Origin: Pararhodobacter zhoushanensis
GTDB taxonomy: Bacteria > Pseudomonadota > Alphaproteobacteria > Rhodobacterales > Rhodobacteraceae
Assembly (NCBI RefSeq): GCF_003990445.1
Contig: NZ_REEZ01000016.1
Location: 1-64,000, forward strand
Reading direction: 5' to 3'
DNA: 64,000 bases
Shown: piece by piece, positions 8,350 to 61,349 of the stretch
Numbering within the stretch: position 1 is the stretch's first letter
How the letters are laid out: every line of letters starts with the position of its first letter
Made by a program: the position numbers and the translations under genes
The notes under the pieces: generated by a model
Databases searched by the model: none
Seen by the model: the letters and a program-made list of their open reading frames with translations, nothing else
Told to the model about the DNA's origin: nothing

Positions 8350-9037
8350 CGGGCACCTCCAGACGGTAGCCGATCTCGCGCACACCCTCGAGCAGGCGAT
8401 CCGCCCCCGCCGCCGCAAGTTTGCGGCGCAGGTTGCTGACGTGGCTGTCAACGGTGCGATCCAGCGCCGGGCTGTCGGGAAGGCAGGCATCAACCAGATC
8501 GCCGCGGCTGAACGCCCGGCCTGGCGCGCGCGCCATATGGGCAAGGATGCGGTATTCGGTGGGGGTCAGATCCAGCATCACAGCCCGGTCGGCCCCGTCG
8601 ACCCTGGCGCGGTAAGCGTCAGGATCGACGGTCAGTGGCCCGACGCGCAACACATGGGTTGGCGTCTGACCCCGTGTGCGGCGCAACACGGCGCGTGCGC
8701 GGGCGACGACCTCAAGCGGATTGAAGGGTTTGACGACATAGTCATCCGCCCCGATGCGCAGCGCCTGCAATTTGTCGAGGTCTTCTGCCAGAGCGGTGAC
8801 CATGATGACCGGCGTCTCGCCGCGCCGCCGGATGGCCGCCAGCACTTCGTACCCGTCCTGTCCCGGCAGCTTGATGTCCAGAACCACCAGATCGGGGCGC
8901 AGGCGCTGGTGATGCGACAGGCCGGTCGTGCCATCCCGCGCGCAGATCACGCGAAAGCCTTCGCGGGCGAAATAGGTTTCGAGGATGTCGGCGATCTCGG
9001 GTTCATCCTCGACGATCAGGATCAGGGCGTCGGTCAT
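8339..9037 (-). CDS. OmpR-family response regulator of the efflux locus
   Basis: A protein of 232 residues with a receiver domain (phospho-acceptor D54 in VVLDIKLPG, conserved Lys in VKPF) and a C-terminal winged helix that ends in VREIGYRL. The gene start overlaps the stop of the RND pump gene by four bases (ATGA), and its end overlaps the kinase start. Pump adaptor, pump, regulator and kinase are thus one transcript, an arrangement also seen in BaeSR- and Sme-type loci. Confidence 0.88.
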   Translation of the reverse strand: MTDALILIVEDEPEIADILETYFAREGFRVICARDGTTGLSHHQRLRPDLVVLDIKLPGQDGYEVLAAIRRRGETPVIMVTALAEDLDKLQALRIGADDYVVKPFNPLEVVARARAVLRRTRGQTPTHVLRVGPLTVDPDAYRARVDGADRAVMLDLTPTEYRILAHMARAPGRAFSRGDLVDACLPDSPALDRTVDSHVSNLRRKLAAAGADRLLEGVREIGYRLEVPDVR

Positions 9038-18876: not shown

Positions 18877-18961
18877 CCCTTGCGCCCAACGCCCCAACGT
18901 GCTGAAAACGTTAGCAGTGGCCGCTTGCTGGAATGGTAGACAGACCGGACTTAAAATCCGT
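18877..18961 (+). repeat. attL: 85-bp copy of the tRNA-Leu 5' half and leader
   Basis: This stretch is identical to 61222-61306. It holds 42 bases upstream of the tRNA and its first 43 bases, ending in the 3' side of the anticodon stem. The rest of the tRNA is absent here, so this half is an orphan left by integration. Confidence 0.92.
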
Positions 18962-21210: not shown

Positions 21211-21993
21211 TCAACGCTTCTCTGAAATTGTGTCTTCAAATATCACTGTCTCCATCTGCGGAGGTGCAGTCCATAGACCATCCTTTGCTCGCACGTAGTT
21301 TCTGCAAAGACATGCAATTTTGTGATCGGTACCAAGACCAATCTTCAACTTGTCGATCTCTACAATGTTTTCGATGGACTTTGTTGCAAAGCCAGAACTC
21401 GAGAGAAGGACACCTCCATCGACAGCTTCCCTTGCGATGGTGTGAACGAACTGATTTATGACTTCGCCGCCAACCCTCTTCCCGGATCGCCAGTGCTTCA
21501 CTTCAACAAAGAATGTTCGATTTCTAACTCCATCCGAATACTTCACCACGACGTCCTTGCCACCATCACCAGAGCATTGTGTGAGTTCCACACTGAAGCC
21601 GAGACCTTCAAAGACTTCGGCAACAAGACGCTCTAAGTCTCGCCACTCTATTTCGTCTAAAGCGGCAGGATGCTTCGCAACTAGGTGGGCTAGCTTTTTG
21701 CATAGATCGTCCAGGGCCACTTGAACATGCGCTCTGACGCCGCTTGCGATCAAATCCGCGTCGTCTTCGTCGGACGTGCTCTCTTCTGTGACGTAGTCGT
21801 TCTTTCGAATATTCGCGGCAAAAGGACCTTTGGGTCCTTCGACGACTTCAAACTCAATTTTATCGCCCTCACAAAGGTCGTCGAACGGAACGTCCAACAG
21901 CTCCATGCCATGGAAAAAGATATCTCTACGTAAATCCGACCTTGCGATGAACCCGTAGCCACTGTCGCGTATTCTAACAACTGTTCCTTGCAT
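21211..21993 (-). CDS. Cold-shock-domain and Mrr-type nuclease fusion
   Basis: A protein of 260 residues. Residues 1-66 form a cold-shock/OB fold (GTVVRIRDSGYGFI, then DIFFH and an EGDKIEFEV strand), which binds single-stranded nucleic acid. A short acidic linker leads to an Mrr-like PD-(D/E)xK domain (about 115-240): LERLVAEVFEGLGF, catalytic D147 (DGGKD), E164 and K166 (FFVEVKH). Mrr-type domains cut modified or foreign DNA; the cold-shock part might target RNA or single strands. It stands alone in the attL-proximal cargo. I infer a defence role and know no characterised homologue with this layout. Confidence 0.7.
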   Translation of the reverse strand: MQGTVVRIRDSGYGFIARSDLRRDIFFHGMELLDVPFDDLCEGDKIEFEVVEGPKGPFAANIRKNDYVTEESTSDEDDADLIASGVRAHVQVALDDLCKKLAHLVAKHPAALDEIEWRDLERLVAEVFEGLGFSVELTQCSGDGGKDVVVKYSDGVRNRTFFVEVKHWRSGKRVGGEVINQFVHTIAREAVDGGVLLSSSGFATKSIENIVEIDKLKIGLGTDHKIACLCRNYVRAKDGLWTAPPQMETVIFEDTISEKR

Positions 21994-22321: not shown

Positions 22322-23392
22322 CTACACCGCCCGCAGCCGCCCTCTTCCCTGCCGCTCACTCCCGCCCTCTTCGGCGGTCAGGCTCCAGATAAGCCCCTCA
22401 ACTTCTCCGAGTGGAAGACCTAGCTCTCGCGCGATGTCAGCCTTGGTTACGCGCTCTTGCCAGAGCATCGTAAGCACCTGGCGCCAGACCTTTGACTTCT
22501 CACGGTCGATGCCGATCGGCTCACCGGTACGGTAGCCGCGCTTTGTCAGGTCGATGCAAATCGACTTGTACTGCCATTCCGAAAGTCGCTTCAGTTGATG
22601 AAGACGGTAAGCCATAGCCATTGCCGAGACGCGCCATCGGGCCTTTGCGCGAATGACGGTATCGGTCGTCACTCGCCTCGGGATGCGGGCTATGACATCT
22701 TCGGCGGGCATCAGGAACGCCGAAGCAAAGGCGTTTGCCTCTCGCTCTACATTTCTTCCCTTCTTGGGGTCGCCATGCTTGTGCATGGCGAGGTGAGCCA
22801 GTTCATGCGCGGCATCAAAACGACTGCTTTCGGCGGTCTTGAAATTGTTCAGGAACATATACGGCTTGCCTCCGCGCCAGAAAGAGAAGGCGTTGACCGA
22901 CGCGGTGTTCTCGGTAAGCGAGAACAGACGAATTCCTTTGACTTCCAGAAGCGCCATAAGGTCAGCGATGGGTTGCTGCCCAAGCGACCATTGTTGCCGC
23001 ATGTGAGACGCTGCAACCTCGGGGTCGCTTTCGTAAGACAGATCGATCAGGTCGGGCTCCGGCAAGCCAAATCGCTCCTCGACCCATCCGCTCAGCATCA
23101 GCCCCACCGATCCGGCACCAAGAGACGCATCGCGCTCCTTGGCCGTCATCTTCGAGAATGAGCGGAAACTGACGGCACCAGGATCGACGGCATCGACCTT
23201 GGGTCCGAAGAAGAATTCTTCCGGGTATCCAAGCGCCTCTGCCAGTTTCCCCACGGTATGCGGCTCAGGTTCGTTTCGACCTTGTTCGAGACGTTTGATG
23301 GTGTCGACGCTTACGCCAGCCTGCTCGGCAAGCGCTTTCGCCGTCAGCCCGCGGCGCGCACGTGCTAATTTCAATCGTGATTCTTCAAACAT
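22322..23392 (-). CDS. XRE-family regulator fused to ImmA/IrrE-type metallopeptidase
   Basis: A protein of 356 residues from the ATG at 23392. An XRE helix-turn-helix covers about 7-60 (LAEQAGVSVDTIKRLEQGR). A zincin domain follows, with HELAH at 196-200 and EREANAFASAFLMP as the third-ligand helix. Fusions of this kind occur in phages and mobile elements; ImmA-type peptidases cleave a repressor after DNA damage. Here the DNA-binding and peptidase parts are one chain, so it may control itself or a partner. The gene upstream ends eight bases before it. Confidence 0.78.
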   Translation of the reverse strand: MFEESRLKLARARRGLTAKALAEQAGVSVDTIKRLEQGRNEPEPHTVGKLAEALGYPEEFFFGPKVDAVDPGAVSFRSFSKMTAKERDASLGAGSVGLMLSGWVEERFGLPEPDLIDLSYESDPEVAASHMRQQWSLGQQPIADLMALLEVKGIRLFSLTENTASVNAFSFWRGGKPYMFLNNFKTAESSRFDAAHELAHLAMHKHGDPKKGRNVEREANAFASAFLMPAEDVIARIPRRVTTDTVIRAKARWRVSAMAMAYRLHQLKRLSEWQYKSICIDLTKRGYRTGEPIGIDREKSKVWRQVLTMLWQERVTKADIARELGLPLGEVEGLIWSLTAEEGGSERQGRGRLRAV

Positions 23393-23399
23393 GTGACGC

Positions 23400-24020
23400 T
23401 TACCTGCGCACGATCTTGGGCTCAAAATTCTCCGCGATGCCGTCGTCGTCGAGGTTCAGGAGCGTGTCATCTTCGTCGCCCTCGGGAAGCAGGAATATGC
23501 GCTCAACTGCGCCTTCGAAGGTCTTGCCGGAAATCTTGGGGCGCGTGAGTTCTGCCCGTCCCATTTCATCCACCATGAGGTAATAGAACGCGAGCCCCGC
23601 TGCATCGTTACGGACGAAATAGCGAAGTTCATCCGGATCGAAAAGCATCGGGCCGCAGGCACGTTCCGACGCCGCACCCTTGTCCGAGCGCGGCTTCGGA
23701 GCCTTGTCGCCACATGCGCGATCGACATTGCAGAACCCGATTTTCAACCCTTTCTGGTCATTGCGTATTGTCTCAACCCCATCTTTCCGGTCGATCACCC
23801 AGTCGCCGCCAATGAACTCCTGGCGGAGAGTTGCAACGCCTTCGTGATAACCAAAGGTGCCTGCCGCGTTCGAAGGATGCAGCGCCGTCGCGTTTCCACT
23901 CGCAGTGCGAGCTGCGCGCACCGCGTTGATCAGACCCTCTATCGCCAATCCCATCTCGGCGATACGGCGGTCCACATGCCAAGGCTCGCCGAGTATCTTC
24001 GTTTCAAGCCATCCAGCCAT
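23400..24020 (-). CDS. Uncharacterised protein paired with the XRE-ImmA gene
   Basis: A soluble protein of 206 residues from the ATG at 24020. It has three cysteines, an acidic C-terminus (GDEDDTLLNLDDDG) and no membrane segment. It is the first gene of a two-gene unit with the XRE-ImmA protein, behind a 38-base inverted repeat. I do not recognise the family. A toxin, a cleavage target or a sensor for its partner are all possible. Confidence 0.55.
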   Translation of the reverse strand: MAGWLETKILGEPWHVDRRIAEMGLAIEGLINAVRAARTASGNATALHPSNAAGTFGYHEGVATLRQEFIGGDWVIDRKDGVETIRNDQKGLKIGFCNVDRACGDKAPKPRSDKGAASERACGPMLFDPDELRYFVRNDAAGLAFYYLMVDEMGRAELTRPKISGKTFEGAVERIFLLPEGDEDDTLLNLDDDGIAENFEPKIVRR

Positions 24021-36550: not shown

Positions 36551-38551
36551 TCACGAGGTCTTGCGACCGAGACAGAAGCTTTCGACCCGGCGGTAGGCCA
36601 TATCCACGTCCTGCATCATCACGATGCGAACGCGACCGCGGGCGCTGTGGGTGAACGGGTCGACGGTAATATCGAGACCGCCCCACATGCCAATCAGCAG
36701 GTCCGCCCAGTTGCCGAACATGATGTCGCCACCGTCGACCTGGTTGGTCGCCTCGGCGCCATAGCCGTTGACCGTGCCGCCGGGCTCCCAGATCACACCT
36801 GCGTCGGTGCCGGACGCGAATTTCGGGGTTGTCTTCATGTGGCCGCGCATGGTTGCGCTGAACACATAGGCCATCGAATCGACATCAGCGTTGTCGGCGG
36901 CAATCTTGGTCTCCATGCCAACAACCTCAGCATAGGTCGGCTGAGCTACCGTCGCGAAGTCTTGCGCATTGATGCCGGAAAGCTTCGTGACCCCCAGCGG
37001 CTGATGAGCGGAGCCCGAGCCATAGAAGCCGGCGTGATCGATCGCCAAGGCGAGCGCCGTCGCCAGGTCGCGACGCGCCAGCGCTTCGACGTCGAGCGAC
37101 GACTGCATCATCATCCGGCGAGTCAACTCGGTCATGCCGGCAACGGTTTTCGGTGCCAGCGAGAACTGACCGAATTCCATGGCGGACAGAATGGCCTCAT
37201 CATCTTCACCGAGCCAGTAACCGGTAGCACCGCCGGTCTGCCGCGGCACATCCATGGTGCCAACCAGGCCACCCATCGGCGTCCCAAGCTGCATCAGCAC
37301 GGCGCGGTTGCGCAGCATCTCGACGAAAGACTGCGACATCAGGGTATTGGAAATCAGATAGCCGCCGGTGTCCCCGGCGGCCGAGCCCGAGGTCGAGGTG
37401 CTGATCGCGCGCGTCAGGACGTCAGTCGGAACGAGGGTCCCTTTCGGTGCACGGTGCGCGTGCTGTTCGGCGGCGCGGGCGCATTCAAACTCAAACGCCG
37501 CGGCACGTTGCAGCGACTGGTCCGTCGGATTGGCCAGTGCCCGGATCAGGCGGAGGAACGAATAGTTCCGGGTCTCGCGTTCCGTCATGCCGATTTCAGC
37601 GGCGTTGCCATCGGTGATCTGCCCGCCACGCGACTGGTTCATGCGCTCGAGCAGTGCGGCGTTGAACTGCTCCACAGTGGAGCCGCGCTCGACATGCTCG
37701 CGCAGGAACGGGGCGTCAGCACCAAAGCGGGTGCCGATCTCGTTGAGCTGGCGCACGCGGCCGCGTTCGCGCTCGGCACCACGGGTCTCGGCACCGGTGT
37801 CGGGTTGGGCCGGTGCCTGCGGAGCAGCCGGCGCTGGCGCAGCGGCGCGCTCGAGGATCTCGACGGTGCCAGCGACATCGTTGCCGTCAGCGCCGACCTG
37901 GACGCGGCACAAGTTGCCCTGGGCGTCGCGGTATTCACGGTATTTCATCGCGGTGTCTCCCTGCGATTTCTGTTGATTGGCGGCGCCACTCTCGGCACGG
38001 GATCCGTCCAGCGATCGACCGACGCCCACCGTCGGATCGGCCGGAACAGACACGATGCTGATCTCGTAGGGTTCCCAGTCGGTGATCCGAACGAGGTCTG
38101 ACGCGCCCTTGCGCGTTTCGACCTCGATCTTGTGCACCAGGTAGCCGATCGAGATGTGTCGGCGGATGCCGTCCTGGACGTCGCGAAAAACCTCGTCAGC
38201 GTGAACGGATCGGCCGAAGCGAACCACCGCCCGGCCGATCTTGTCAGCATCGACGCGCACGCTCTCGACAACCCCGATCTGGTCGCGCCAGTCGTGATTC
38301 ATCAGAAGCGCAGCGCCGTTTTGCATCCGGTCGAGGCGTATCGCCTCGCTATCATGCACGAGCACCTCTTCACCGAACCACCGTTCAACCGGCGTCTCAC
38401 TTGAGAACGCCAGCTCAACGGTTCGAGCCTCGATGTCGATCTCGCGCACCGCGACCGCCGCGCGCCGCAGGGGCTGCCCGCCGTTCGCGTTGATCTGCTC
38501 GGGCGTCACCGCCCGTGTCAGGTATGCGCCGATGATCTCGGTTTTCCGCAT
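36551..38551 (-). CDS. Prohead protease fused to HK97-type major capsid protein
   Basis: A protein of 666 residues. Residues about 30-190 form an S78-type protease with the expected His (H86 in LLMNHDW) and Ser (S134 in RRHISIGY). A charged coil region (about 240-300) acts as a scaffold-like delta domain. Residues about 330-660 match the HK97 capsid fold. The protease would cut itself and the scaffold region away during head maturation. Separate genes are the more common form. Confidence 0.88.
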   Translation of the reverse strand: MRKTEIIGAYLTRAVTPEQINANGGQPLRRAAVAVREIDIEARTVELAFSSETPVERWFGEEVLVHDSEAIRLDRMQNGAALLMNHDWRDQIGVVESVRVDADKIGRAVVRFGRSVHADEVFRDVQDGIRRHISIGYLVHKIEVETRKGASDLVRITDWEPYEISIVSVPADPTVGVGRSLDGSRAESGAANQQKSQGDTAMKYREYRDAQGNLCRVQVGADGNDVAGTVEILERAAAPAPAAPQAPAQPDTGAETRGAERERGRVRQLNEIGTRFGADAPFLREHVERGSTVEQFNAALLERMNQSRGGQITDGNAAEIGMTERETRNYSFLRLIRALANPTDQSLQRAAAFEFECARAAEQHAHRAPKGTLVPTDVLTRAISTSTSGSAAGDTGGYLISNTLMSQSFVEMLRNRAVLMQLGTPMGGLVGTMDVPRQTGGATGYWLGEDDEAILSAMEFGQFSLAPKTVAGMTELTRRMMMQSSLDVEALARRDLATALALAIDHAGFYGSGSAHQPLGVTKLSGINAQDFATVAQPTYAEVVGMETKIAADNADVDSMAYVFSATMRGHMKTTPKFASGTDAGVIWEPGGTVNGYGAEATNQVDGGDIMFGNWADLLIGMWGGLDITVDPFTHSARGRVRIVMMQDVDMAYRRVESFCLGRKTS

Positions 38552-38601
38552 CTGGTCCCTCGCTTTCGCCGGACCATTTTCAGTCAGCGCAGCGGCTGGT
38601 T

Positions 38602-38611
38602 CCTCTGGCGG
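38602..38611 (-). repeat. Repeated motif CCGCCAGAGG, copy upstream of the capsid gene
   Basis: The minus strand reads GGGCAAACCGCCAGAGGAAC, the same 20 bases as the copy upstream of the sheath gene. It lies 51 bases before the capsid start. Confidence 0.55.
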
Positions 38612-38663
38612 TTTGCCCGCTGTTGCGATTGCCGAGACTCATTGAGCCGATGAAGCGTGTCGC

Positions 38664-38875
38664 TTAGATCTCAGGGTCTGGCACGAGCTGCAGCCTCTGC
38701 CCGTCAAGGATTGCCGCGGCTTTCCAAGCGGTCTCCATCGGCACGGTGACGGAAAAGTCGCTCATACTTTGCGCGGCAGCAATGGCGCAGCCCTCGGTGT
38801 TGCCCGGCGCCTCGCCCCAGTTCACCTGCGACATGGCATCGCCAGCCGCCAGAAGCCACCTGATAGTTTCCAGTT
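38664..38875 (-). pseudogene. Truncated second copy of the 133-residue head-operon gene
   Basis: The last 70 or so codons match the gene at 46123-46524 by eye at about 80 per cent of bases (AAGDAM-QVNWG, IAAAQSMS-FSV, then VPDP-I and stop). Homology breaks near 38875, where an 8-base change disturbs the frame (AACTG repeated). The front half is missing, and the restriction cassette begins beyond it. Confidence 0.75.
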
Positions 38876-39051
38876 ACTCAGTTCCGCAGTAAGTGGCTCC
38901 CTTATCGCATCGTCGGAATGGACGGGAAGCGGAAGTTCGCTGCGGACGCAAACGGACTAAGGCTTCACCCGAAACCGGACGTTCGAGTCGCACCTGCATA
39001 GATAACCATAGTTGGTATACAGTGGTTCGTGACCACCGATCATCGACACCC
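38876..39051. other. Left junction of the restriction cassette
   Basis: No gene. Similarity to the second gene copy fades here, and a GC-rich stretch around 38930-38990 (TTCGCTGCGGACGC) resembles degenerate intergenic sequence elsewhere. No inverted terminal repeats or transposase gene are seen. Confidence 0.45.
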
Positions 39052-42000
39052 CTAGATTTTTCCGCCAACGCCCTTGAACTTTTCAACGAACGCAGAGATG
39101 CGTTGGAACACATCTCTTTTTTTGGTCAGGTATTGTGGATTGAGCGGACTCATTTTTGGAAGGATCGAGTTCAACTCCGTGCCGTTTTCGCTCGCATATT
39201 CGCGCTTGATCGACGTCGCGATGTAGCGCTTGGCGGCATCCGCGTTCAATTTTTCATCGGTTATCAGTTCTTCCGCTTCCCGGCGTTGTTCGGCTTGTGC
39301 GAAGGCAAAAAACGCCTCAATCACCCCGGCCTTGTCCCCCAGTTCGTCAAGGTTTGTCTGATTGATGAAATCGACGATGAGGCTTTCTTTCGCGCGGTTG
39401 CCAATACTGGCGCGGATGACACGGCGAACTTCGCCAACGAGCTCTGACTTGCTCTTCGTTTTTTTGTTGTGCTCGAAGATTCGCTCAAGGATGTAATCCA
39501 GATTGATTTCCTGGGACTTCAAGAGGTCGACCTCAAAGACGACATCATCCCAGTCGATCGTTGACTCAACCTGCTCGGCGCTCGTCTTTTCACGGCGAAG
39601 CCAATCCCGGATGTCATTGTAGATCGAACGGTAGTCCTGGACCTTTCGGTCAGCAGGCATCTCGATGCTCTTGAGCCCGTCAACGTCATCATCACTCAAA
39701 TGATGCCGCTCCTTGAACGCTCTCACCGCTTCGGCGTCACTCTCGTCAATCTCCTGAAGCTCTCTTAGGCTGGAGAACTCATCATAATTCTGAAGGGTAT
39801 TCTCAACGCGGAGATACTCGCCGAACAGCTTCGCAAAGGCCTTCTTGTCCGCTTCCTTTTCGATGGCGGCGGGGTTCGGGAAACGCTCTTCCAGCTCACG
39901 GACGACATCGACAAAGCCTCGCCGCGCCTCGCCTGTCGTCTGGTCCGTAAAACCTTCCATGTATTCTGAGTAACTCTTCTCCAGAACGACGTTCTTGGTA
40001 TTGGCGTTGCCGAAGAGTGTGATCGCCTTGACGGTCGCCTCTTCCAGGTCGCGGAAGGTAACGATGTTGCCGAAAGACTTGGTCGCATCATAAATGCGGT
40101 TGGTGCGGGAGTAGGCTTGTATAAGGCCGTGAAAACGCAGGTTCTTGTCCACGAACAGCGTGTTCAGAGTCGGCGCGTCAAAGCCGGTCAGGAACATGCC
40201 AACCACAATGAGCAAGTCGACTTCCTTGGACTTCACCCGTTTCGCCAGATCCCGGTAATAATTCTGGAAGCCTTTGCTATCGACGCTGAAATTCGTTCGG
40301 AAATAGGCGTTGTAGTCCGCGATGGCGACGTTCAGGAATTCCTTGGCGCTGCTGTTCAGCGCCGAAACCTCAAAACTCTCGTCAGGAATGTCGCCAATCG
40401 CATCCTGTTCTTCGTTGGCCGCGAATGAAAAGATGGTCGCGATCTTCAAGGGCTTGTCGCTACCGTCCTGCAGCGTATTCAGCTTTTCATAATAGAGCTT
40501 GGCTGCATCAACGCTGCTCACCGCGAACATGGCGTTGAAGCCCTTATTGTCTCCATAGAGACGATGCGTCTTGCGGCGGAAGTTTTCGAGAATGTACTGG
40601 GAAATCTCGGCGATCCGTTCGGGGTGCTGAAGAGCTTGCCGGTTTTCGGCGGCGGTCAGCTTCTTTTCGTCCTGTTCGGTTTCGATCGCTTTGAACTGCG
40701 GGCGCACATCGTTGTAATCGACCTTGAACTTCAGCACCTTCTCGTCGCGGATCGCGTCGGTGATCACATAAGAATGAAGTTCGCTTCCGAATACGCTGGC
40801 CGTCGTCTCCGCACCCGAAGCATTTTCCGGAAAGATCGGTGTGCCGGTGAAGCCGAACTGGCAGAACTGCTTGAACTTCCGATTGAGGTTCTTCTGTGCC
40901 TCACCAAACTGGCTGCGATGGCACTCGTCGAAAATGAAGACGACGCGCTGGGTGTAGACCGGCAGGTCGCCCTCGCTCTTCATCAAATTGTTGAGCTTCT
41001 GGATGGTCGTGACGATGATCCTGTTGTCGTCCTTGGAGAGGTTCTGCTTCAACCCGGCTGTACTGTCCGATCCATTGACGCTGTCTGGCGAGAAGCGCTG
41101 ATACTCCTTCATCGTTTGGAAATCGAGGTCCTTGCGGTCGACCACGAAAAAGACCTTGTCGATGAAATCGAGTTCAGTGGCGAGGCGGGCCGCCTTGAAG
41201 CTGGTCAGCGTCTTGCCTGAGCCCGTAGTGTGCCAGACATATCCGCCGCTTTCCGGCTTTCTAAGCGTCTTGCCTTCGAACGAGCTTCTGATCTTTCGTA
41301 AGATTCGTTCCGTCGCCGCGATCTGATAGGGGCGCATCACCAGCAGCGTGTCGCTGACATCAAAGACGGAATAATCGAGCAACACCTTCAACAGTGTGCG
41401 CTTCTCGAAGAAGGTCGCCGTAAAATCCTTTAGGTCCCGGATCAGGCTGTTATCCGCCTGCGCCCAGTTCATCGTGAAGTCGAAACTGTTCTTGTCGCGC
41501 TTGGTCGTATTGGCGAAGTAGCGCGTATCCGTGCCGTTCGAGATCACGAAGATCTGGAGGTACTTGAAGAGCGAACTGTCCGAGTTGAAGCTCTCCTTGC
41601 TATAACGGTGGATCTGGTTGAACGCCTCCCGAATGGCGACGCCGCGCTTTTTCAGCTCGACCTGCACCAGCGGCAGCCCGTTCACAAGGATGGTCACATC
41701 GTAGCGGTTCGCGTGGGTTCCTGCCTGCTCGAACTGCTTGATGACCTGTATCTTGTTGCGGCAGACTTGACGCTTATCGACGAGATAGATGTTCTGAATC
41801 CTGCCGTCATCGAAGACGAAATCGAAGATGTAGTCGTCATGGAGTTTGCGGGCTTTGTCCGTCACGCTGTCGCTGGGCTTGTCCAAATAGGTTTCGACGA
41901 AGCGCGCCCACTCCTTATCGGTAAACTGAACATCATTGAGCGCCTGCAGCTGCACGCGCACATTGGCCAGCATGGCGTCTGTTGATTTCAGGTCAGGCAG

Positions 42001-42153
42001 ATGCTCATAGCCCTGATTGCGCAGGTCCTGAACAAGCTCGCGCTCCAGGTCGCCCTCAGACTGATAGCTGTCAGCCGCCTCCCAGGCGCGCACGTACTTG
42101 TCCAGAACGATAAAGCGATTGGTCTCGGCGATCGGGGTCGTCTGCTCAGGCAT
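39052..42153 (-). CDS. hsdR: Type I restriction endonuclease subunit R (type IC, EcoR124-like)
   Basis: A protein of 1033 residues, full length. The nuclease site is D152, E166, K168 (VELKK), almost the numbering of EcoR124I. The helicase has motif I HTTGSGKT at 308-315 and motif II FDECH near residue 405. It translocates DNA and cuts far from unmodified sites when bound to the methylase core. Its ATG overlaps the anticodon nuclease stop by eight bases. It is last in the four-gene operon. Confidence 0.93.
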
Positions 42154-43306
42154 TCGGGGCCTCCTCCTGCCAATAGCTGTAATTGTTGCGCAAATGCTCC
42201 AGCAGGAGCTTCACCGTCTGCTTTTCCTGCGGCGACGGCTCGGCAATGGCCTCGCTAGAGAGCGTACTATGGCTCGTAAACTGAATGATGCGGTTCAGGT
42301 AAAGTTGCTGGTCGCCCGGCAGCAACTCTGACCATCGCGGATAGCCCAGAAAGTTCGATGTCTTTTCATAGAGATTGCGCAGCAGTGTGAAATGATAGCG
42401 CTCGATCTTGTCCGCCGCGATTGCCTCCTCCAGCGTCCGCTTGAGGTAAAGGTGATACGAAAAGCTCTGGTTGGAATCGCCATTCTTCGCGTCTAGCTCA
42501 AAGGTTCCATCCTCCAGCCTTTTCAGCATGTAGCAGGTTTTTTTCCCCAACTCATTGAACAGCACGTTAAAGAACAGCGGGCTGTGGGTCGTGATGATGA
42601 ACTTCAGGCCGTTCACGCTTTCACTTCTCTTGATGAGGTCGGCGACATCGACGGCAAGCTGAATGAGATGGTTCTCGTCGAGCGAGCTAACCGGGTCATC
42701 GATGAATATGTATTCGAGATCGTTGAACTGATCCGTCTCGCGCTCATCGACTTCGGCGACATTGCGGGTGCTGATGACCTGATCCAGCAGGCAATAAAAA
42801 ATGCTCCAGATGAAGTTGCTTTCTTCACCCTTCGATATTTTGAGACGTTCTGGGTTGGTCGCCGGATCTTGCCCCAGTGTGAAGATCACTTCGGAAAATG
42901 CCGGGACGGCAATCTCTTTGTTGTCCTTGTCCCTGGTTTTGTATTCCTCATTGAAGCGGGGCGTAAGGTTCTGCTGGGTGTAACGCTGAAACACGGTAAT
43001 CACATTGAGGTCGAGCCCAAGATCTTCGAAGGCGGACCTGGTGAACGCATTCGGCTGAATGCAAAGCTTCCGCTCGGTATCGCCGGTCAGATCATTGTCC
43101 CAGTAAAAGAGGTCTTCGGTGAAGGCGTTGTAGTAGAGCACCTTAGGGCGATAATCGTCGTCCCGTTCTTCGGTCTTCGGGTCGATTAGCTCTCTGAATG
43201 CGCGGGAGAGACGGGTCTTTCCAGACGCATTGAACGCGTAAATCAGCTGCACCTTTTTATCGGCGTCCCGCAGCAACTGCGCGATCTCGGTCAGCGTGTG
43301 TCCCAT
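42146..43306 (-). CDS. prrC: PrrC-type tRNA anticodon nuclease
   Basis: A protein of 386 residues (E. coli PrrC has 396). An ABC-type ATPase covers about 18-260: Walker A AFNASGKT, signature LSKGEESNF, Walker [13 protein letters not shown], and the His switch TTHSPLF. The C-terminus keeps R310, E314 and H346, the same spacing as the PrrC catalytic residues R320, E324 and H356, plus a [12 protein letters not shown] box linked to substrate choice. PrrC cuts tRNA-Lys in the anticodon loop once a phage blocks the restriction enzyme that masks it. Its place between the S-carrying gene and hsdR is that of the E. coli prr locus. Confidence 0.93.
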
Positions 43307-45478
43307 TTAAGTCGCCATGTCATCAGGTTTGGGGAAGCTTAGGAGCAGATCGCGGTAGTGGGTGTACTGTTTTTTGCGGGCACTAAGCTCGGCACTAAGC
43401 TCGGCGGCAAGCGCGGCGAAGCTGTCGAGTATCCGAACAATCTCCCCCTGTATCGCCAACGACTTCTCTGGATCACTGGGGCATGGGATGGGGACGGTGA
43501 TCTGAACCAAATTCCCTTTCGTCAGCTTTGCCCGCCCTTTGCTCGACAAGAAGGGAAGGAAGTTGGTCGTCGTCAAACAGTGGAAAAGGAACCGCGTATC
43601 GACCGCGTCCGTTCCTCGCACAACATGAACATGGTTGTTGGCCCAGAATTTACCGGAGACATATTGGATTGAGTAGTTCTCGAGACTTGCTGAACCGTCC
43701 TCAGCGATGAGGACGTATTCGCCGTTGTGGGTGTGGCCATCGACGTAATCCTGAATGTTGTTAGCGCCGTAGTAGGGGATATCTCCAGCTGCACGCAATG
43801 ATGCTTTGACCGGCCTGCGGGCAGTATTGGCAAGCTCGAAATAGTTGTCATCACCGAGCGGCACCCACGCCACCTCAGCCCCATTCAGCAGCTTATCCAG
43901 AAAACCCGCCGCACTCATGGACTGAGCCTCGTTGGCGTCAATCTCCACAATGATGGCGTCGATATTAGTGCGTAGCTGATCGATCTTCTCAACCTTGGCT
44001 TTGATCTCCTCATTCAGCTCACCAATGTTGACGATCTCGCGCGTATCACGCGGCTCGACATAGGAGCTGACCGAGAGGTTGTAGCCCCGCTCCACGACGG
44101 TCTCATACGGGACCGAGGCGGCGACATGGTCGACGTCTTGCTTGCTATCAAAAATCTCCATCACCCGCCCGATGTGTTCGTCCGTCATCAGATTGGTGTT
44201 GGTGGCCTTTTTGAAAAACTCCTCTCCCGTAGCGTCGATGAATTGGATGGCCGTGTCGGTCTTGTTCTTCGCGAGGACCAGGATCGTCACCGCGATGGTC
44301 GTTCCGTAGAAAAGGTTGGAGGCGAGCGCAATCACCGTCTCGACATAGTTGTTGTCGACCAGATACTGCCGGATCTTCTTCTCCGCGCCGTCGCGATAGA
44401 AGATCCCCGGAAAGCAGACAATCGCCGCGCGACCCTTGGCTGACAGGTAACTCAGGGCATGGAGTACAAAGGCAAAATCCGCCTTTGATTTGGGCGCCAG
44501 CACGCCAGCGGGCGCGAAGCGGTCATCATTGATCAGCGTCGGGTCATCCGAACCGATCCATTTCACCGAATATGGCGGATTGGAGACGATGGCATCAAAG
44601 GGCTTGTCGTCCTGAAAGTGGGGCTGGGTGAGCGTGTCACCGCGCTGGATATTGAACTTGTCGTAATTGATGTTGTGCAGGAACATGTTCATGCGGGCAA
44701 GGTTGTAGGTCGTGTGGTTGATCTCCTGCCCGAAAAAGCCCTCTTCGATGATGTGTGCGTCGAAGTGCTTCTTGGCTTGCAGCAGCAGGGAACCGGAGCC
44801 GCAGGCCGGGTCGTAAATCTTGTTGACTTTTTCCTGCCCATGCATGGCGAGCTGCGCAATGAGCTTCGAGACATGTTGTGGGGTAAAAAATTCCCCGCCG
44901 GACTTGCCCGCATTGGCGGCGTAGTTCGAGATCAGGAATTCATAGGCATCGCCGAACAGATCAATCTGACTGTTGTGGAAGTCTCCGAAATCCAGCTCCG
45001 CAACGCGCTTCAACACTTTTGCCAAGCGGCTATTCTTTTCCGTGACTGTGTTGCCCAGGCGCGTGCTGGTCGTGTCAAAGTCGGCGAACAGGCCCTTGAT
45101 GTCCAGCTCAGAGGGGTAGCCATTGGCGGAGGATTCGATCGCCGCAAAAACCTGAGCGAGATCGGTGTTGAGGCTATCATTGGTGTTAGCGTTCTTCGCG
45201 ACATTGGCGAACAGCTGGCTGGGATAGATGAAATAGCCCTTGGTCTTGATGGCGTCGTCCTTGATGTCATCGGTGACGACATTGTCGGGAAGACCAGCGT
45301 AGTTGATGCTCTCGTCATCCGCCGCGATGTAAGCAGCGAAATTCTCGCTGATAAAGCGGTAAAAGAGCGTGCCGAGGACATATTGTTTGAAGTCCCAGCC
45401 ATCGACTGAGCCGCGCACATCGTTCGCAATGTCCCAGATTTTCCGTTGTAGCGCCGCACGTTGTTCCTGGCCGGTCAT
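43307..45478 (-). CDS. Type I methyltransferase HsdM fused to a single-TRD HsdS
   Basis: A protein of 723 residues. HsdM part: helical start (1-150), SAM motif DPACGSGS at 223-230, catalytic NPPY at 300-303. From residue 521 ([16 protein letters not shown], like an HsdS start whose ATG at 43918 survives) follow one target domain (about 537-675), the conserved helix with two AEL repeats (689-700), [12 protein letters not shown], and a SFPKP end as in full-length EcoR124 HsdS. The second target domain is absent. Two chains could pair to read a palindromic split site. Confidence 0.9.
43380..43415 (-). repeat. Tandem 12-bp repeats in the HsdS spacer helix
   Basis: GCACTAAGCTCG occurs twice in perfect tandem (43380-43391 and 43392-43403), followed by a weaker third unit (43404-43415). 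It encodes the AELS/AELA repeats. In EcoR124 gain or loss of a TAEL repeat at the same place changes the spacer of the target site. Confidence 0.8.
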
Positions 45479-45693
45479 CTCTCTTTGTCCTTCTTCGGAC
45501 TGGCTTCACGCTCGATCCAGTCCTCAATATCCACGCGCCGAAACCGCCAAGTGCCGCCAACCTTGAAGCCGGGCAACTTGCTTTCGGCCGCAAGGCGGTA
45601 GGCGGTTTTCTTGTTGATCCTGAGATAGTCGGCGACTTCATCAATGGTCATGATGTCAGCTGCCATGCGAAGCACTTTCCGAAAATCATCCAT
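45475..45693 (-). CDS. Excisionase/AlpA-type helix-turn-helix protein
   Basis: A protein of 72 residues with the HTH_17 pattern ([20 protein letters not shown], then [20 protein letters not shown]). It is the first gene of the restriction operon and overlaps the hsdM-hsdS start by four bases. It probably controls the operon, like the short HTH proteins often found before type I loci. Confidence 0.8.
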
Positions 45694-46122
45694 TTTGAGA
45701 TTTCTATGGAAATTTGCGGATTCCTACAAGGGGGGAATTCCAAGCGATTTCAGAGTTCTGATGAGATCGGGCTGGCTTTGGGTGTGTCGCTCCTTGTATT
45801 TGGGTTGCGTCGGCGTTTTAGATGTCCTGACACCTGAGCCGTGTCACCGCCCAAGCCCTCTAGCTCTGCCCACGGTCCAGTCGCTGCCGCCTGTACGTAG
45901 AGACTGCGAGTTCGACTGCCCCTTGATTTTGCTAATGCAGCGAACGGCGGGTTCGACGGGCCGCATCGCAGCAACAAGACCGCACAGTGGAGGTCGGCTA
46001 TGGGCCGTCAGCCGCCGCTAGGGCTTTTCGATACTTGGAATGTTCACATGGCTTGCGCCAAGCATAACGAACACCGTCGCCTGGCGCCGCTGCCCGGTGC
46101 TCGAACGGCGCAACTGTCTCGC
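45694..46122. other. Gene-free right junction of the restriction cassette
   Basis: About 430 bases with the likely operon promoter close to 45700-45760 and no convincing gene. I see no transposase remnant, terminal repeat or tRNA. Confidence 0.45.
45700..45713 (-). promoter_or_regulatory. Palindrome upstream of the restriction operon
   Basis: ATTTC and GAAAT are separated by four bases, seven bases upstream of the first start codon. It could be an operator for the HTH protein. Confidence 0.4.
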
Positions 46123-46524
46123 TTAAATCTTCGGGTCGGGCACAAACTGCAAGCTCTGCCCGGCAAGGATTGCCTCGGCATTCCACGCGGTCTGCATCGG
46201 CCCAGCGACCGAGAACACGCTCATGCTCTGCGCGGCAGCGATCGCGCTGCCCTCGGTGATGCCCGGCGTATCACCCCAGTTGACCTGCGGCATGGCATCG
46301 CCAGCCGCCATCAGCCGCCACATGGTTTCCAGTTCCGCCGTGGCGCTCATGTCCTGCATCAGGCGATGCGTCGGCGCGGTCTCAAACGTTGCGCCAGGAT
46401 CTTTCGCGCAGACCTTCCGGCCCCGCGTGAAGCTGTTCGGTCCTCTGCCCATTGCGTCAAAGACGATGGACAGCTTCTCGGCCTGAGCCTCTGGCACGAT
46501 GATGATGCACGGTACATTGGCCAT
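46123..46524 (-). CDS. Hypothetical head-operon protein (complete copy)
   Basis: A soluble protein of 133 residues (MANVPCIIIVPEAQAEKL start). It follows the LamG-like gene by one base. A truncated, diverged second copy lies on the far side of the restriction cassette. I do not recognise a family. Its pairing with the LamG-like protein suggests an accessory part of the virion. Confidence 0.6.
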   Translation of the reverse strand: MANVPCIIIVPEAQAEKLSIVFDAMGRGPNSFTRGRKVCAKDPGATFETAPTHRLMQDMSATAELETMWRLMAAGDAMPQVNWGDTPGITEGSAIAAAQSMSVFSVAGPMQTAWNAEAILAGQSLQFVPDPKI

Positions 46525-46525
46525 G

Positions 46526-47668
46526 TCAGGCGCTCCAATAGTTGTGAAGTTTCAGGATTTCGGTGGGGGTGAGCACGCGGTCGCTCGCGAGAGCGTCAGA
46601 GATAAGCCCAGAGAAGAGGAATAGCGGGGTTCCATTGATGTTCAGTCCGCCCAGCGTCACCCCAAGTCCATTGGACGTAGGGCCACTCTGGGGGGCACTG
46701 TAAACTTCCACCCCGTCAGCATAGAGGTTCACTGTGGACCCATCCCACGTGATCTCCCCGGTGCGCCAGCCGTTACCAAGGTCCGGCCCGCCAAAGATGA
46801 TGCTCGGTGAATTTTCGCCAACACCCCCAGATATTTGCCCATTCGCGTGCCTGGTGAGATAGGCGCGATTGTTGGCACCTGATGAGCCTATGATGCCTCG
46901 AGTTCCCGTCGCCCCTTGCGAGGCCTTGAAACGCGCCGCCAGCGTTCCGGCAACGCCCGGTTTGAACGTAGTCTCCAGCCGGTCATCGCTGCCGTCGAAA
47001 GACAGACCTGTGCTCTGGTATGTCGGGCGCGCACCCGCTGTGGGCTGTACGCCGTGGTAGCCGGGGATTTCACGCACCGAGATGTTGCCGATCTCGACGT
47101 ACTGCCCGGCTTCGGACGGCACGGCGATGCAGCCGACATACATGGTTTCCACCGTCGCGACGAACACCTCATCAAAATCAAACGAGGAAGAAAGCAACGA
47201 CCCTGACGGGAGAGTCGCCAAGTGACCAACGCGATTTGAGATGGCGCCGACAGTGCCCGCAAAGCCAGTCTGGGTCACACGATAGAAGTTACCGACCACA
47301 AGACCGGTGATCTCTTGAGAAACCCCCATTGCCGCCGTCGACGCTGCGGTAACGCGGATGCGCCCGCCTGCCGAGGTGATAACCTCCGATCCCCGCGCCG
47401 CCAACCAACCGTCGACCGCCGCGCCGTCGCCGTTGATCACCCTTTCCGGCCCAGGCTCCGGACCCGGTGTCTTGCTCAGAACCAGACCGGCTGGATTTCC
47501 CGGCGCGGAAACATTCGTGATGCCCGCGCTTGTCAGGAAAAGCGTGCTCAGGTCGCGGTGGGCGAACAAAAGGCCCGTGTCGGACGGGCCGAAAATGGCG
47601 GCAGGTGTCCAGCGGCTGCGCGACCCGAATGGCGATCGCGGATCGAAGGGCGATGCGCGGTTACGCAT
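46526..47668 (-). CDS. LamG/concanavalin-like virion protein
   Basis: A protein of 380 residues from the ATG at 47668, overlapping the upstream stop by eight bases. The middle is beta-rich with a carbohydrate-binding look, and residues about 225-375 fit a LamG jelly roll (GLSFDGSDDRLETTF, WRTGEITWDGSTVNLYADG, FSGLISDALASDRVLTPTEI). It may decorate the head or bind surface sugars. The frame upstream of the chosen start lies within the previous gene. Confidence 0.65.
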   Translation of the reverse strand: MRNRASPFDPRSPFGSRSRWTPAAIFGPSDTGLLFAHRDLSTLFLTSAGITNVSAPGNPAGLVLSKTPGPEPGPERVINGDGAAVDGWLAARGSEVITSAGGRIRVTAASTAAMGVSQEITGLVVGNFYRVTQTGFAGTVGAISNRVGHLATLPSGSLLSSSFDFDEVFVATVETMYVGCIAVPSEAGQYVEIGNISVREIPGYHGVQPTAGARPTYQSTGLSFDGSDDRLETTFKPGVAGTLAARFKASQGATGTRGIIGSSGANNRAYLTRHANGQISGGVGENSPSIIFGGPDLGNGWRTGEITWDGSTVNLYADGVEVYSAPQSGPTSNGLGVTLGGLNINGTPLFLFSGLISDALASDRVLTPTEILKLHNYWSA

Positions 47669-47948
47669 GGCTGACCGAGATAGCCCCCAGCCCGGTTGCT
47701 GATCTCGCCCACACGCGTTTAGCCATCGGCAGCCCGGGGAAGAGGTCAGAGAGCGCCTCATTCCGGGCACCGGTTCCGCAGGGATAGAACCATTCGGCGA
47801 AGTCCCCGGTGGGCTCCGTGCCGCCTGTCGTTGCGGCAATCATCACCTGCGCCCCCGAGATAACCTCGAAGGAAATCGAAGCGACATCGCTCGATGTCAG
47901 CTCGGTCCACTCACCCTCGGGCAGGCTCAGCTTGGTATTACGCGGCAT
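47661..47948 (-). CDS. Small hypothetical head-operon protein
   Basis: A protein of 95 residues from the ATG at 47948 (MPRNTKLSLPEGEWTELT), overlapping the portal stop by 11 bases. It has a beta-sandwich look with an FYPCGTGARN loop. Similar short proteins follow portal genes in other phages; function unknown. Confidence 0.6.
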   Translation of the reverse strand: MPRNTKLSLPEGEWTELTSSDVASISFEVISGAQVMIAATTGGTEPTGDFAEWFYPCGTGARNEALSDLFPGLPMAKRVWARSATGLGAISVSHA

Positions 47949-49584
47949 TCTTTGCGCCTCCTTTTTTCTGTCCGCTGGCAGTATCGCCGTCGTTCGCAGG
48001 CGCATCGGCTTGATCAGCAGGCGCGGGCGGTGCGGTGCCCTTCCGGGTCAGAGCAGCCTCGATGAACTGGTCAGGGATCCCGGCCGCGCGCATCTGCTCG
48101 ACGTCCTGCGCGATCTCGCGCCAGACAGTTTGAGGGTCTCGCCCCTGGTCCCGGATGTAAGACCCAAAGGACCGCATCAAGTTGTCTTTCTCGGTTACTG
48201 CGGCGTCGACGTCAGCCCGCGGGTCGATCCACGACCAGCGCCGGGCCTGCCACAAAACTGACCGGTATTTCTCCAGGCGCTCGGGCTTCAGCGTTCCGCC
48301 GGCTGCAGTCTTGATCCGTCCGGCCAGCAATGCCCGCGGCAACCAGGCCAGGAACACCGGCTCGACTAGCATTTCGATCAGCCATTCCTGAAGACCCTTC
48401 CAGTGCTCGCGCTCGTCAAGCGCGCCTTGCCGGATCGACGAGAAGTTGACCCCCTCGAGATCATTCGCGAGGTTGTTATAGGCCACGCCCATGCCAACCG
48501 AGATGCCGCGAAGCATTTCCTTTCTGAACGGCGCGAGCTCGCCCAGAGGATAGGTCGGGTGGTTCGGGACAGGCTCGACACCCGCGGGAAGCTCCTGCCA
48601 CACGCCCGCCTCAACATCGACCTCGATCGAGGCGTCATCTTCTTCACTTTCAGGGCCATAGCCCTCAGCCCATTTGAAGAATCCGCCCTTCGCTGCTGAC
48701 ACCCGGGCGTTGACCAGCGCCGCCTGTTCGTATCCGGCCAACATGCGCATGCGCCATAGCGCGGTGACCATCCAGGGCAGGCCGCGCTTTTGACCCACCA
48801 TGTCCTCGACAAACCCATGAAGGATTTCAGACGCGGGAACCGTTACAAAGGATCGCCCGCCGAACGCGTAGTCCGCATCGCGCTCATCCGTGGTCGTGAA
48901 CAGGTAGGCGATCGGGCGGCCATAGCGGTTGAATCTGATGCCGTGCCGGATGAACGTCCCATCTTGGCGGCGCTCTTCATCGTAATCGACCGGGCATCGC
49001 TGCGGATCCAGCACCTGCAACGCGAAACCCCATGGACCCGCCTCTGCGCCAAAGATCGTGCGCACCATGAACTCGCCGTCCCGTGCCGCCGTGGCGGCTG
49101 CAGACTTCTGGATTGCGACGAATGAGCGCCGGCCAGTGACGTCAGCATTTTCGCGACGGCACCAGTCGCGCCAAGCTTGCTCGATCGCATCGTTCGCTTC
49201 GGTGTCGAGCGTTCCGCCCTGGTCGCGCGCCTGTGCCTGCAGCCGGATACCGACAGGACCCACCACGTTCTGCGTCACGGTCCGCAGGAAGCCACGGCCA
49301 TAATCGTTGTTCAGTGCCTGGTCACGCGACCGCGCCACAACGGCGCGCTGGTTGTTTCGGATCACCGTGTCGGCTGTTACCGGCGTTGCGGTCCAGCTGG
49401 CCGACAGCCGATCTGTTGCACCGGCATCGAGGTTCCGTGCCGCAGCTCTCGCGGAAGCCATCACAGCCCGCTGACGCGCTCGCCGCACGATCCCGCCAGA
49501 TTGCGGCGCAGCCGTGATGATCGGCTCAGCGCGCGCAGCGCCGGTATTACCCGCCTCTGGCGCGCCTTTCCCAAATCCGAACAT
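47938..49584 (-). CDS. Phage portal protein, lambda gpB family
   Basis: A protein of 548 residues with the lambda-type portal core: NNDYGRGFLRTVTQNVVGPVG near 90-110 and SSIRQGALDEREHW near 375. Twelve copies form the ring through which DNA enters and leaves the head. The C-terminal 40 residues are Ala/Pro/Asp-rich. Unlike lambda, there is no separate head protease gene next to it. Confidence 0.9.
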   Translation of the reverse strand: MFGFGKGAPEAGNTGAARAEPIITAAPQSGGIVRRARQRAVMASARAAARNLDAGATDRLSASWTATPVTADTVIRNNQRAVVARSRDQALNNDYGRGFLRTVTQNVVGPVGIRLQAQARDQGGTLDTEANDAIEQAWRDWCRRENADVTGRRSFVAIQKSAAATAARDGEFMVRTIFGAEAGPWGFALQVLDPQRCPVDYDEERRQDGTFIRHGIRFNRYGRPIAYLFTTTDERDADYAFGGRSFVTVPASEILHGFVEDMVGQKRGLPWMVTALWRMRMLAGYEQAALVNARVSAAKGGFFKWAEGYGPESEEDDASIEVDVEAGVWQELPAGVEPVPNHPTYPLGELAPFRKEMLRGISVGMGVAYNNLANDLEGVNFSSIRQGALDEREHWKGLQEWLIEMLVEPVFLAWLPRALLAGRIKTAAGGTLKPERLEKYRSVLWQARRWSWIDPRADVDAAVTEKDNLMRSFGSYIRDQGRDPQTVWREIAQDVEQMRAAGIPDQFIEAALTRKGTAPPAPADQADAPANDGDTASGQKKGGAKNAA

Positions 49585-60006: not shown

Positions 60007-60170
60007 GCATGCGAGCCATCATCACAGTCGCCGCCATGCGAGAGGCCATTCAGGCCGCAAAGGAAGGTCTGAAAGTAGAGGTCAAGCCTGACGGTACGCT
60101 CATCATTGCGCCGGTTGCATTTGAGCGCGATGCTGGTGATGAGTTCGACCTCGTGAGCATGAAGCGATGA
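60003..60170 (+). CDS. Small hypothetical protein before the integrase
   Basis: A protein of 55 residues (MSMRAIITVAAMREAIQAAK, helix then strands). It is coupled to the integrase by ATGA. Small proteins here are sometimes directionality factors, but this one shows no helix-turn-helix. Confidence 0.5.
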   Translation: MSMRAIITVAAMREAIQAAKEGLKVEVKPDGTLIIAPVAFERDAGDEFDLVSMKR

Positions 60171-61147
60171 AGCGCGAACTGCCGAAATTCGTCTATCCCA
60201 AAGGGAAGCGGGGCTACCTGTATTTCTGCCGCGGGAAGACGACCCAGCGAATTCAGGCCGACTTTGGCACGCCCGAGTTCTGGGCCGAGTATGCTATAGC
60301 TCTGAAGGGCAGGGCGCCCGTCCGGCCCGGGAAGACATTCACCGCGCTGATCGAGAGCTACAAACGGAGCAACCGGTTCAGCCGCCTCGCGCCTCGCACA
60401 AAGGCTGACTATGACAAGGTCCTGACGTTCATCGTGGATCGGATAGGCGGGCTGGATCCGGCAAAGATGCAGCGCCGCAGCGTCATCGCCTATCGGGATG
60501 AGAACGCGGGGGCCGTCCGCTTTGCAAACTACCTGGTGCAGATCCTGCGTATCCTTTTTGAACACGCGCACGACATCGGCTGGAGGAATGACAACCCGGC
60601 GAAGGGCGTCTCCCTGCTCAAATCGACGGCCGCACCGCGCGAGCCGTGGCCAGCTGATCTCGTCGAAGCGTTCCGCGCGAAAGCGACAGGCCCAGCGCTT
60701 TTGATATTCGAACTGTGCCTGGGCACAGGCCAGCGGATCAGTGACGTGCTTCGGATGCGCTGGAACGACATCGAGGCAGGCGGGGTCAACGTCACCCAGG
60801 GCAAGACCGGTGCGCGTTTATGGGTGCCGCTCACGCCTCAACTGCGCGCCGTGCTGGCCGTGACTGCAAAGGACGGTCTCACCATCGTCACGACGCGGGG
60901 CGGGCGGATGATGTCCTACAAGACCGCGCAGGGCCATGTGATGCGGGTTCGATTGCAGATCGGCGGGGAAGGGCACGACATCCACGGCTTGAGGCACACG
61001 GCGGCATCGGAGTTGGCGCGCCTCGGGTGCAGTGACGAGCTGATCCAGTCGGTCACTGGCCATTCCAGCGCCAGGATGGTTGCTCACTACGCGGGCGCAG
61101 CGCGGCAGAAGGCCCGAGCCAAAGAGGCGCAGGAGAGGCGGGAATGA
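60167..61147 (+). CDS. int: Tyrosine-family site-specific integrase
   Basis: A protein of 326 residues with all catalytic residues: R190 (GQRISDVLRM), H273 and R276 (HGLRHTAAS), H299 (GHSS) and the nucleophile Y308. A SAM-like core-binding domain covers about 55-150. It ends 75 bases from attR, the usual layout for integration into a tRNA. It would act at the 85-bp att repeat. Confidence 0.92.
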   Translation: MKRELPKFVYPKGKRGYLYFCRGKTTQRIQADFGTPEFWAEYAIALKGRAPVRPGKTFTALIESYKRSNRFSRLAPRTKADYDKVLTFIVDRIGGLDPAKMQRRSVIAYRDENAGAVRFANYLVQILRILFEHAHDIGWRNDNPAKGVSLLKSTAAPREPWPADLVEAFRAKATGPALLIFELCLGTGQRISDVLRMRWNDIEAGGVNVTQGKTGARLWVPLTPQLRAVLAVTAKDGLTIVTTRGGRMMSYKTAQGHVMRVRLQIGGEGHDIHGLRHTAASELARLGCSDELIQSVTGHSSARMVAHYAGAARQKARAKEAQERRE

Positions 61148-61221: not shown

Positions 61222-61306
61222 CCCTTGCGCCCAACGCCCCAACGTGCTGAAAACGTTAGCAGTGGCCGCTTGCTGGAATGGTAGACAGACCGGACTTAAA
61301 ATCCGT
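61222..61306 (+). repeat. attR: 85-bp copy covering the tRNA-Leu 5' half and leader
   Basis: Identical to 18877-18961. The copy ends at the 3' side of the anticodon stem; the tRNA's 3' half, from 61307, is chromosomal. Confidence 0.92.
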
Positions 61307-61349
61307 TGCTCGTATGAGCGTGTGGGTTCGAGTCCCACAGCGGCTACCA
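61264..61349 (+). tRNA. tRNA-Leu(TAA)
   Basis: An 86-base gene with encoded CCA. The acceptor stem GGCCGCT pairs with AGCGGCT, the D-arm is GGAATGGTAGAC, the anticodon loop is CTTAAAA, and a class II variable arm (GCTCGTATGAGC) and T-arm (GTGGG TTCGAGT CCCAC) follow. The outermost anticodon-stem pair is a C-T mismatch. Confidence 0.93.

Follow-up and report, generated by a model that had tools for sequence, protein, structure and literature searches.

A natural HsdM-half-HsdS fusion beside a PrrC anticodon nuclease homologue in a putative myophage prophage of Pararhodobacter zhoushanensis

A 64,000-nt stretch of Pararhodobacter zhoushanensis DNA (contig NZ_REEZ01000016.1; hereafter the window) carries an operon in which HsdM and half of an HsdS are encoded as a single polypeptide, next to an HsdR and a homologue of the anticodon nuclease PrrC. 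The operon is likely a horizontally acquired defence cassette that a temperate myophage carries as cargo among its late genes. On the analogy of the PrrC system of E. coli, its products would probably form an (MS)2R2 complex that restricts at a palindromic site, keeps PrrC silent and releases PrrC when restriction is disabled. The single M-S polypeptide with one TRD is the most unusual part of the operon, and was overlooked in an earlier note on this DNA. The features of the operon are as follows.

45475..45693, minus strand: HTH_17 DNA-binding protein, 72 aa, gene 1 of the operon (Pfam HTH_17, E 2.5e-18)
43307..45478, minus strand: HsdM-half-HsdS fusion, 723 aa, single open frame (matches to EcoR124 HsdM, 7bst_D, and HsdS, 7bst_A)
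43919..43934, minus strand: insertion of ~16 nt at the usual hsdM/hsdS overlap, linker NEAQS (compared with the junctions of L024 and L026-L031)
42146..43306, minus strand: PrrC anticodon nuclease homologue, 386 aa (PADLOC PrrC; triad and ATPase columns in the alignment)
42269..42379, minus strand: codons of the PrrC triad R310, E314 and H346 (E. coli R320, E324 and H356; alignment)
39052..42153, minus strand: HsdR, 1033 aa, EcoR124-type endonuclease and translocase (2w00 match; TIGR00348)

The earlier note had described one tightly coupled operon among phage head genes, and this was confirmed. The genes for the HTH protein, HsdM-HsdS, PrrC and HsdR are coupled on the minus strand across 39052-45693 (ORF calls), each at the position reported, and are flanked by portal and protease-capsid genes. 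The HTH and fusion genes overlap by 4 nt, and prrC and hsdR by 8 nt. The prrC ATG lies directly after the stop of the fusion, with zero gap, and therefore there is no room there for a second S gene. The HTH protein scored 78.8 bits against the NCBIfam MAD1 model, which has a cut-off of 80, and an HTH gene is also located 5' of hsdM in several relatives.

Residues 1-519 of the fusion match EcoR124 HsdM (912 bits), and residues 521-717 match residues 1-198 of the 404-residue EcoR124 HsdS. As the HsdS match is of half length and Pfam finds one Methylase_S stretch in the fusion, the S part corresponds to the N-terminal half of a type IC HsdS, i.e. one TRD and the following helix region. HsdR aligns over its full length (residues 2-1033) with EcoR124 HsdR (1755 bits), and D152, E166, K168 and K314 all occupy the positions claimed for them. 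The designation of the operon as type IC stands for HsdM and HsdR, which are of the EcoR124 family and IC-like, but not for the operon as a whole, since no separate two-TRD HsdS was found in it and its half-size hsdS is joined to hsdM. An assembly and a target site different from those of a standard type IC enzyme are therefore expected. HsdM and one TRD in one polypeptide, with HsdR separate, is the composition of Type IMS, the name proposed for M-S fusions that have one TRD or two and work with a separate HsdR (accessible text of PMC3510504).

Relatives were taken from 101 PrrC loci (L002-L102), comprising 21 IMG/VR contigs and the best 80 of 471 loci in GTDB genomes, a sample biased to close PrrC relatives; L002 is the IMG/VR copy of the prophage in the window, probably from the same assembly. 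Among close relatives, L024 and L026-L031 have an ATGA or GTGA overlap between the 3' end of hsdM and the 5' end of hsdS. At the window junction, ~16 nt part the two genes and one frame results, the hsdS ATG being retained in frame just 3'; this internal ATG might also give a free half-S. A one-base sequencing error was considered as the source of the fusion and rejected as inadequate, because ~16 nt of the assembled sequence differ from the junctions of these relatives; a larger assembly error at the junction might still account for it.

No hsdS was seen in 4 of the 101 loci and it was cut by a contig end in 8, which left 89, including L023, which begins inside hsdS and was counted as seen though partial. 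Fused hsdM-hsdS genes were found in two of the 89, namely L002 and L087, and hence in one of the 88 loci other than the window's own prophage; in most relatives hsdM and hsdS are separate and two TRDs are present. L087 (positions 7837-9993), from the flavobacterium Xanthomarina, is a second natural HsdM-half-HsdS fusion beside prrC, of 719 aa and with a different TRD, which presumably resembles the first TRD of EcoR124. Unfused half-S genes were found in L027 (Fulvimarina) and L029 (Gluconobacter), the latter 81% identical to the S part of the window. HsdMS matches were found in 113 of the 385 genomes of a class-wide sample; among the matches listed, from the strongest down, only that of the own genome is end-to-end. 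Three further candidates for a half-S (L014, L043 and L059) were read instead as hsdS split into two ORFs and were not counted, and a candidate fusion in L152 proved to be two separate frames. The apparently split hsdS genes of L014, L043 and L059 lie upstream of prrC, near SKQ-type amino-acid repeats (the upstream ORF of L014 being a predicted one), and these repeats might switch by slippage.

The 3' part of the window hsdS tracks the central conserved region of the L031 hsdS, and its extreme end tracks the distal one. The same switch, near 43335-43378, was seen in blastn comparisons with L023, L024, L025, L028, L030 and L031. A recombination event joining these two conserved regions would remove the second TRD, and such an origin of the half-S is weakly suggested by the switch. 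Self-comparison of four full-length hsdS genes backs it only in part: the central and distal regions show a clear likeness in L024 (80% over 41 nt, E 2e-6) and a weaker one in L030 (72%, E 0.05) and L031 (67-79%, E 0.2-0.7), and none was detected in L025. In L029, a half-S occurs without fusion within the same group.

PrrC is encoded at a single place in the genome. The PADLOC PrrC model covers its residues 3-384 (E 2.8e-141), NCBIfam assigned no family to it, and the linkage of its gene to a type I R-M operon, one of the traits of the family, was found. The E. coli reference for the alignment was the 396-aa PrrC of plasmid NZ_CP116245.1, not that of the original prr strain, with the triad numbered as in the accessible text of PMC2610378. 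The alignment has 104 rows, mostly close relatives, and the distant L022 was omitted from the counts; the other 103 include the window, its copy L002, one E. coli and one Zymomonas plasmid protein. R310, E314 and H346 are aligned one-to-one with R320, E324 and H356 of E. coli, the Arg-X3-Glu-X31-His spacing is kept, and the three columns are invariant in all 103 rows counted. The N-terminal ABC ATPase motifs, P-loop included, likewise line up with those of E. coli PrrC. The catalytic triad with its known spacing and the ABC ATPase, both asserted in the earlier note, are thus borne out, and the outcome named there as counting against PrrC, i.e. motifs that could not be superimposed, did not occur at the sequence level.

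PrrC D277 aligns with E. coli D287, which we take to be the wobble-base contact, and Asp is kept in 102 of the 103 rows counted. At residue 27, in the P-loop region, the protein has alanine; this is the residue in 12 of the 103 rows, and 91 have glycine. The window and E. coli proteins have 238 identical residues; the former is ten residues shorter, with 16 fewer residues preceding the P-loop (K18 corresponding to K34), and this N-terminal shortfall could affect silencing. An AlphaFold model of PrrC had a mean pLDDT of 70 and a pTM of 0.59, and the stretches 17-37 (with the P-loop), 277-282 (with D277) and 345-353 (with H346) were below pLDDT 50. The top PDB structure matches of the modelled ABC head were Rad50 heads, at low TM-score, and lower-ranked matches of the model were retron complexes, SMC heads, Septu PtuA and Gabija. 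Structure prediction, which had been proposed as a check, thus gave a Rad50/SMC-like head, but with its low TM-score and moderate confidence it adds little to the alignment. A search of PDB chains with a PrrC sequence profile gave no match at E 0.01, and a single-sequence search of the PDB gave just two weak Rad50 matches. Two tRNA pattern searches of the own genome found nothing.

The surroundings of the operon are those of a prophage, with the following features.

18877..18961, plus strand: attachment repeat, exact, 85 bp (repeat comparison)
61222..61306, plus strand: attachment repeat, exact, 85 bp, overlapping tRNA-Leu (61264-61349) and adjoining the integrase gene (60167-61147) (repeat comparison)
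47938..49584, minus strand: portal protein (gene annotation)
46116..46346, minus strand: flanking repeat, 3' part of phage ORF 46123-46524, whole upstream copy (81% identity over 231 nt)
38998..45897, minus strand: R-M/PrrC cassette common to unrelated genomic sites, including a leader of ~200 bp (blastn to L031, L030 and L025; L023 for the hsdR end)
38657..38887, minus strand: flanking repeat, truncated second copy of ORF 46123-46524, downstream of the cassette (81% identity over 231 nt)
36551..38551, minus strand: prohead protease-major capsid fusion, 666 aa (PHROG 617 end to end)

Between the 85-bp repeats lies an apparently complete myophage prophage of ~42.4 kb, with genes for terminase, portal, protease-capsid, connector, sheath, tape measure, baseplate, tail fibre, endolysin, late activator, replication and repressor proteins. 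The cassette is between the portal and capsid genes, in the same direction as the late genes, and its GC content is 0.52-0.56, as compared with 0.61-0.66 in the surrounding phage genes. The cassette matches at other sites (L031, L030 and L025; blastn) start at 38998-39046 and end at 45882 or 45897, and the mobile unit therefore takes in ~200 bp before the HTH gene. The two flanking copies of the phage ORF point to exchange via a related phage, rather than a transposon, as the event that would have brought the cassette in. The portal-capsid gap was also considered as a defence hotspot. In L137, L138 and L139, which are the three best portal relatives with both genes in the family sample and are related prophages of the same family, portal and capsid genes are adjacent without cargo; hence there is no case for a hotspot.

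The phage ORF that is whole upstream of the cassette (133 aa) forms a pair with a gene for a LamG-like protein (46123-47839, minus strand), and the pair recurs on contig C6 of the own genome (54585-56109; 47% and 90% identical), where the site is an IMG/VR prophage. Of the 198 genomes in the family sample, the own genome has the 133-aa ORF, which was found in none of the 197 others. Near the prophage end, 21211-21993 (minus strand) encodes a protein in which a cold-shock domain and a restriction endonuclease domain of the Mrr type are joined; this may be a second gene for defence, or one for conversion. An HTH and IrrE/ImmA-like metallopeptidase regulator (22322-23425, minus strand) lies beside a 267-aa ORF for which no Pfam or PHROG match was found.

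How a cassette within a late operon is expressed had been raised as a question, and it is eased, though not solved, by the cassette's own leader of ~200 bp, which is conserved in L031, L030 and L025. The leader being common to unrelated sites, the cassette probably has its own promoter, but there is no sigma-70 consensus in the leader; none was found in 45400-46200, where 0.2 would be expected by chance. The same interval has two terminator-like sites, against 0.9 expected, and one (46088-46070) lies on the operon strand. Around the hsdR end (38500-39200), neither a sigma-70 consensus nor a terminator-like site was found. An own leader and the lack of an end terminator would fit expression in the lysogen and lytic read-through into the capsid gene.

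Relatives occur on 21 IMG/VR contigs, the window's own prophage included, such membership being weak evidence of phage. A relative of this phage's terminase was found in 3 of the 20 other IMG/VR loci (L008, L009 and L021), of which L008 and L009 are apparently duplicates. Among 20 flanking proteins from 16 loci (15 viral contigs and L031), ten had a PHROG match at 1e-5, including integrases, a primase, a methyltransferase and a weak tail match, and ten had none. In searches of phage records, no match to PrrC was found and 118 records matched HsdMS. PrrC relatives are also found on plasmids; 15 Escherichia plasmid records matched, four being among the matches listed, and the genes of NZ_CP116245.1 alone were examined. 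On this E. coli IncY plasmid (L144, L177; H11), a type I R-M operon and an anticodon nuclease gene are located beside phd/doc. The plasmid is read as a P1-like temperate phage-plasmid because of its terminase, late promoter activator, phd/doc, antirepressor, lysozyme and tail fibre genes and its IncY type. Carriage of a PrrC cassette by a phage was not taken as unique, as this putative phage-plasmid has one. No PrrC operon in a prophage was found in the literature consulted, which was mostly open and included the accessible text of PMC13113432, PMC9122126, PMC10121019 and PMC9501460.

In the mechanism proposed for the window operon, two fusion chains would pair via their S helices and would then read and methylate a palindromic split site. 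The methyltransferase core with two HsdR subunits would restrict unmethylated DNA, and PrrC from the same operon would be held inactive by the Hsd complex. An invading phage that disables the complex would free PrrC, and the freed PrrC would cut tRNA (tRNA-Lys by analogy), so that translation and infection stop. In E. coli, PrrC is silenced by the Hsd complex and freed by Stp (accessible parts of PMC3874165 and PMC12707154), and it is from EcoprrI-PrrC that we infer suicide upon the defeat of restriction. That the fusion is a naturally evolved, working single-TRD Type IMS enzyme, the symmetric two-chain complex of which guards PrrC, is given about an even chance.

The fusion and the lost second TRD might alternatively reflect decay, in which case R-M would be weak or dead and PrrC off or a surviving passenger. 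Single-TRD fusions are indeed rare (1 of the 88 other loci with hsdS in view), a broken gene copy flanks the cassette, and the interrupted hsdM of L025 shows that decay does occur in this group. However, all four frames of the operon are open, the catalytic residues checked are present, and the half-S spans the entire TRD and the following helix region. The 81% identical, unfused half-S of Gluconobacter L029 further indicates that the half-S has been kept through divergence, and decay is considered unlikely. The form given in the earlier note, a standard type IC enzyme whose M is separate and whose S has two TRDs, plus PrrC, agrees with the IC-like sequences of HsdM and HsdR but is contradicted by the one 723-aa frame with a single TRD, and is scarcely credible.

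It is also improbable, if less so, that the cassette is mainly a prophage stabiliser and that defence is secondary, loss of the prophage killing the cell through unmethylated sites or freed PrrC. R-M systems can be addiction modules and relatives of the cassette are also plasmid-borne. Type I systems are generally weak addiction modules, however, and related cassettes also occur at sites where a search of the fetched stretch gave no relative of the structural genes of this phage (the queries were 14 proteins of this one phage, so other phages would escape).

Like the fusion in the window, the S. aureus CC398-1 construct joins HsdM to one TRD and one helix, with HsdR separate; the CC398-1 enzyme is presumably of a non-IC family. 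Unlike the window fusion, the construct was laboratory-built, and the accessible text of PMC6158711 does not mention PrrC. According to the same text, this M-half-S fusion of 2018 dimerised and methylated the palindrome ACCN5GGT, and together with HsdR it lowered phage plating only ~tenfold (eop 0.10). A fusion of EcoKI M and S worked in vivo and needed added HsdM in vitro (PMC3510504, accessible part). It resembles the window in that the hsdM/hsdS frameshift is removed, and differs in being engineered, type IA and without PrrC, with an EcoKI HsdS that retains the EcoKI target.

Half-S function in type IC systems is described for EcoR124 delta-50, EcoDXXI truncations and NgoAV in the accessible text of PMC3874165. 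NgoAV, like the window enzyme, is a natural type IC system with a single N-terminal TRD, and its target is palindromic; unlike it, NgoAV has a fragmented hsdS that the same text does not describe as fused to hsdM, and PrrC is not mentioned there for it. The prrABD genes are a conventional type IC system (PMC3874165, accessible text). In EcoprrI-PrrC (prrA-prrB-prrC-prrD), as in the window, PrrC lies within a type I operon, has the triad and ATPase motifs and is accompanied by IC-like HsdM and HsdR, whereas the fused M-S, the half-size S, the leading gene for a 72-aa HTH protein and the prophage location are features of the window. NZ_CP116245.1 shares with the window PrrC and a type I R-M operon on a putative temperate phage element, but its hsdM is separate, its hsdS is of full size, the phage is different and the operon is not between portal and capsid genes.

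No report of a natural HsdM-half-HsdS fusion was found in the literature outside REBASE, which was mostly open and included the accessible text of PMC6158711, PMC3510504, PMC3874165 and PMC10030836. The pairing of PrrC with a type I system was already known; what is new is the natural occurrence, with PrrC, of the fused half-S form, which has until now been described chiefly in an engineered version. A natural single M-S chain with an expected symmetric complex would be a simpler object for studying how the R-M complex holds PrrC silent. If the proposed reading is true, the operon would be the simplest guard-and-toxin set of its class, made of two Hsd polypeptides and PrrC and having a palindromic target, and, as a case from nature, would support the route that has been proposed from type I enzymes to fused ones with a single TRD.
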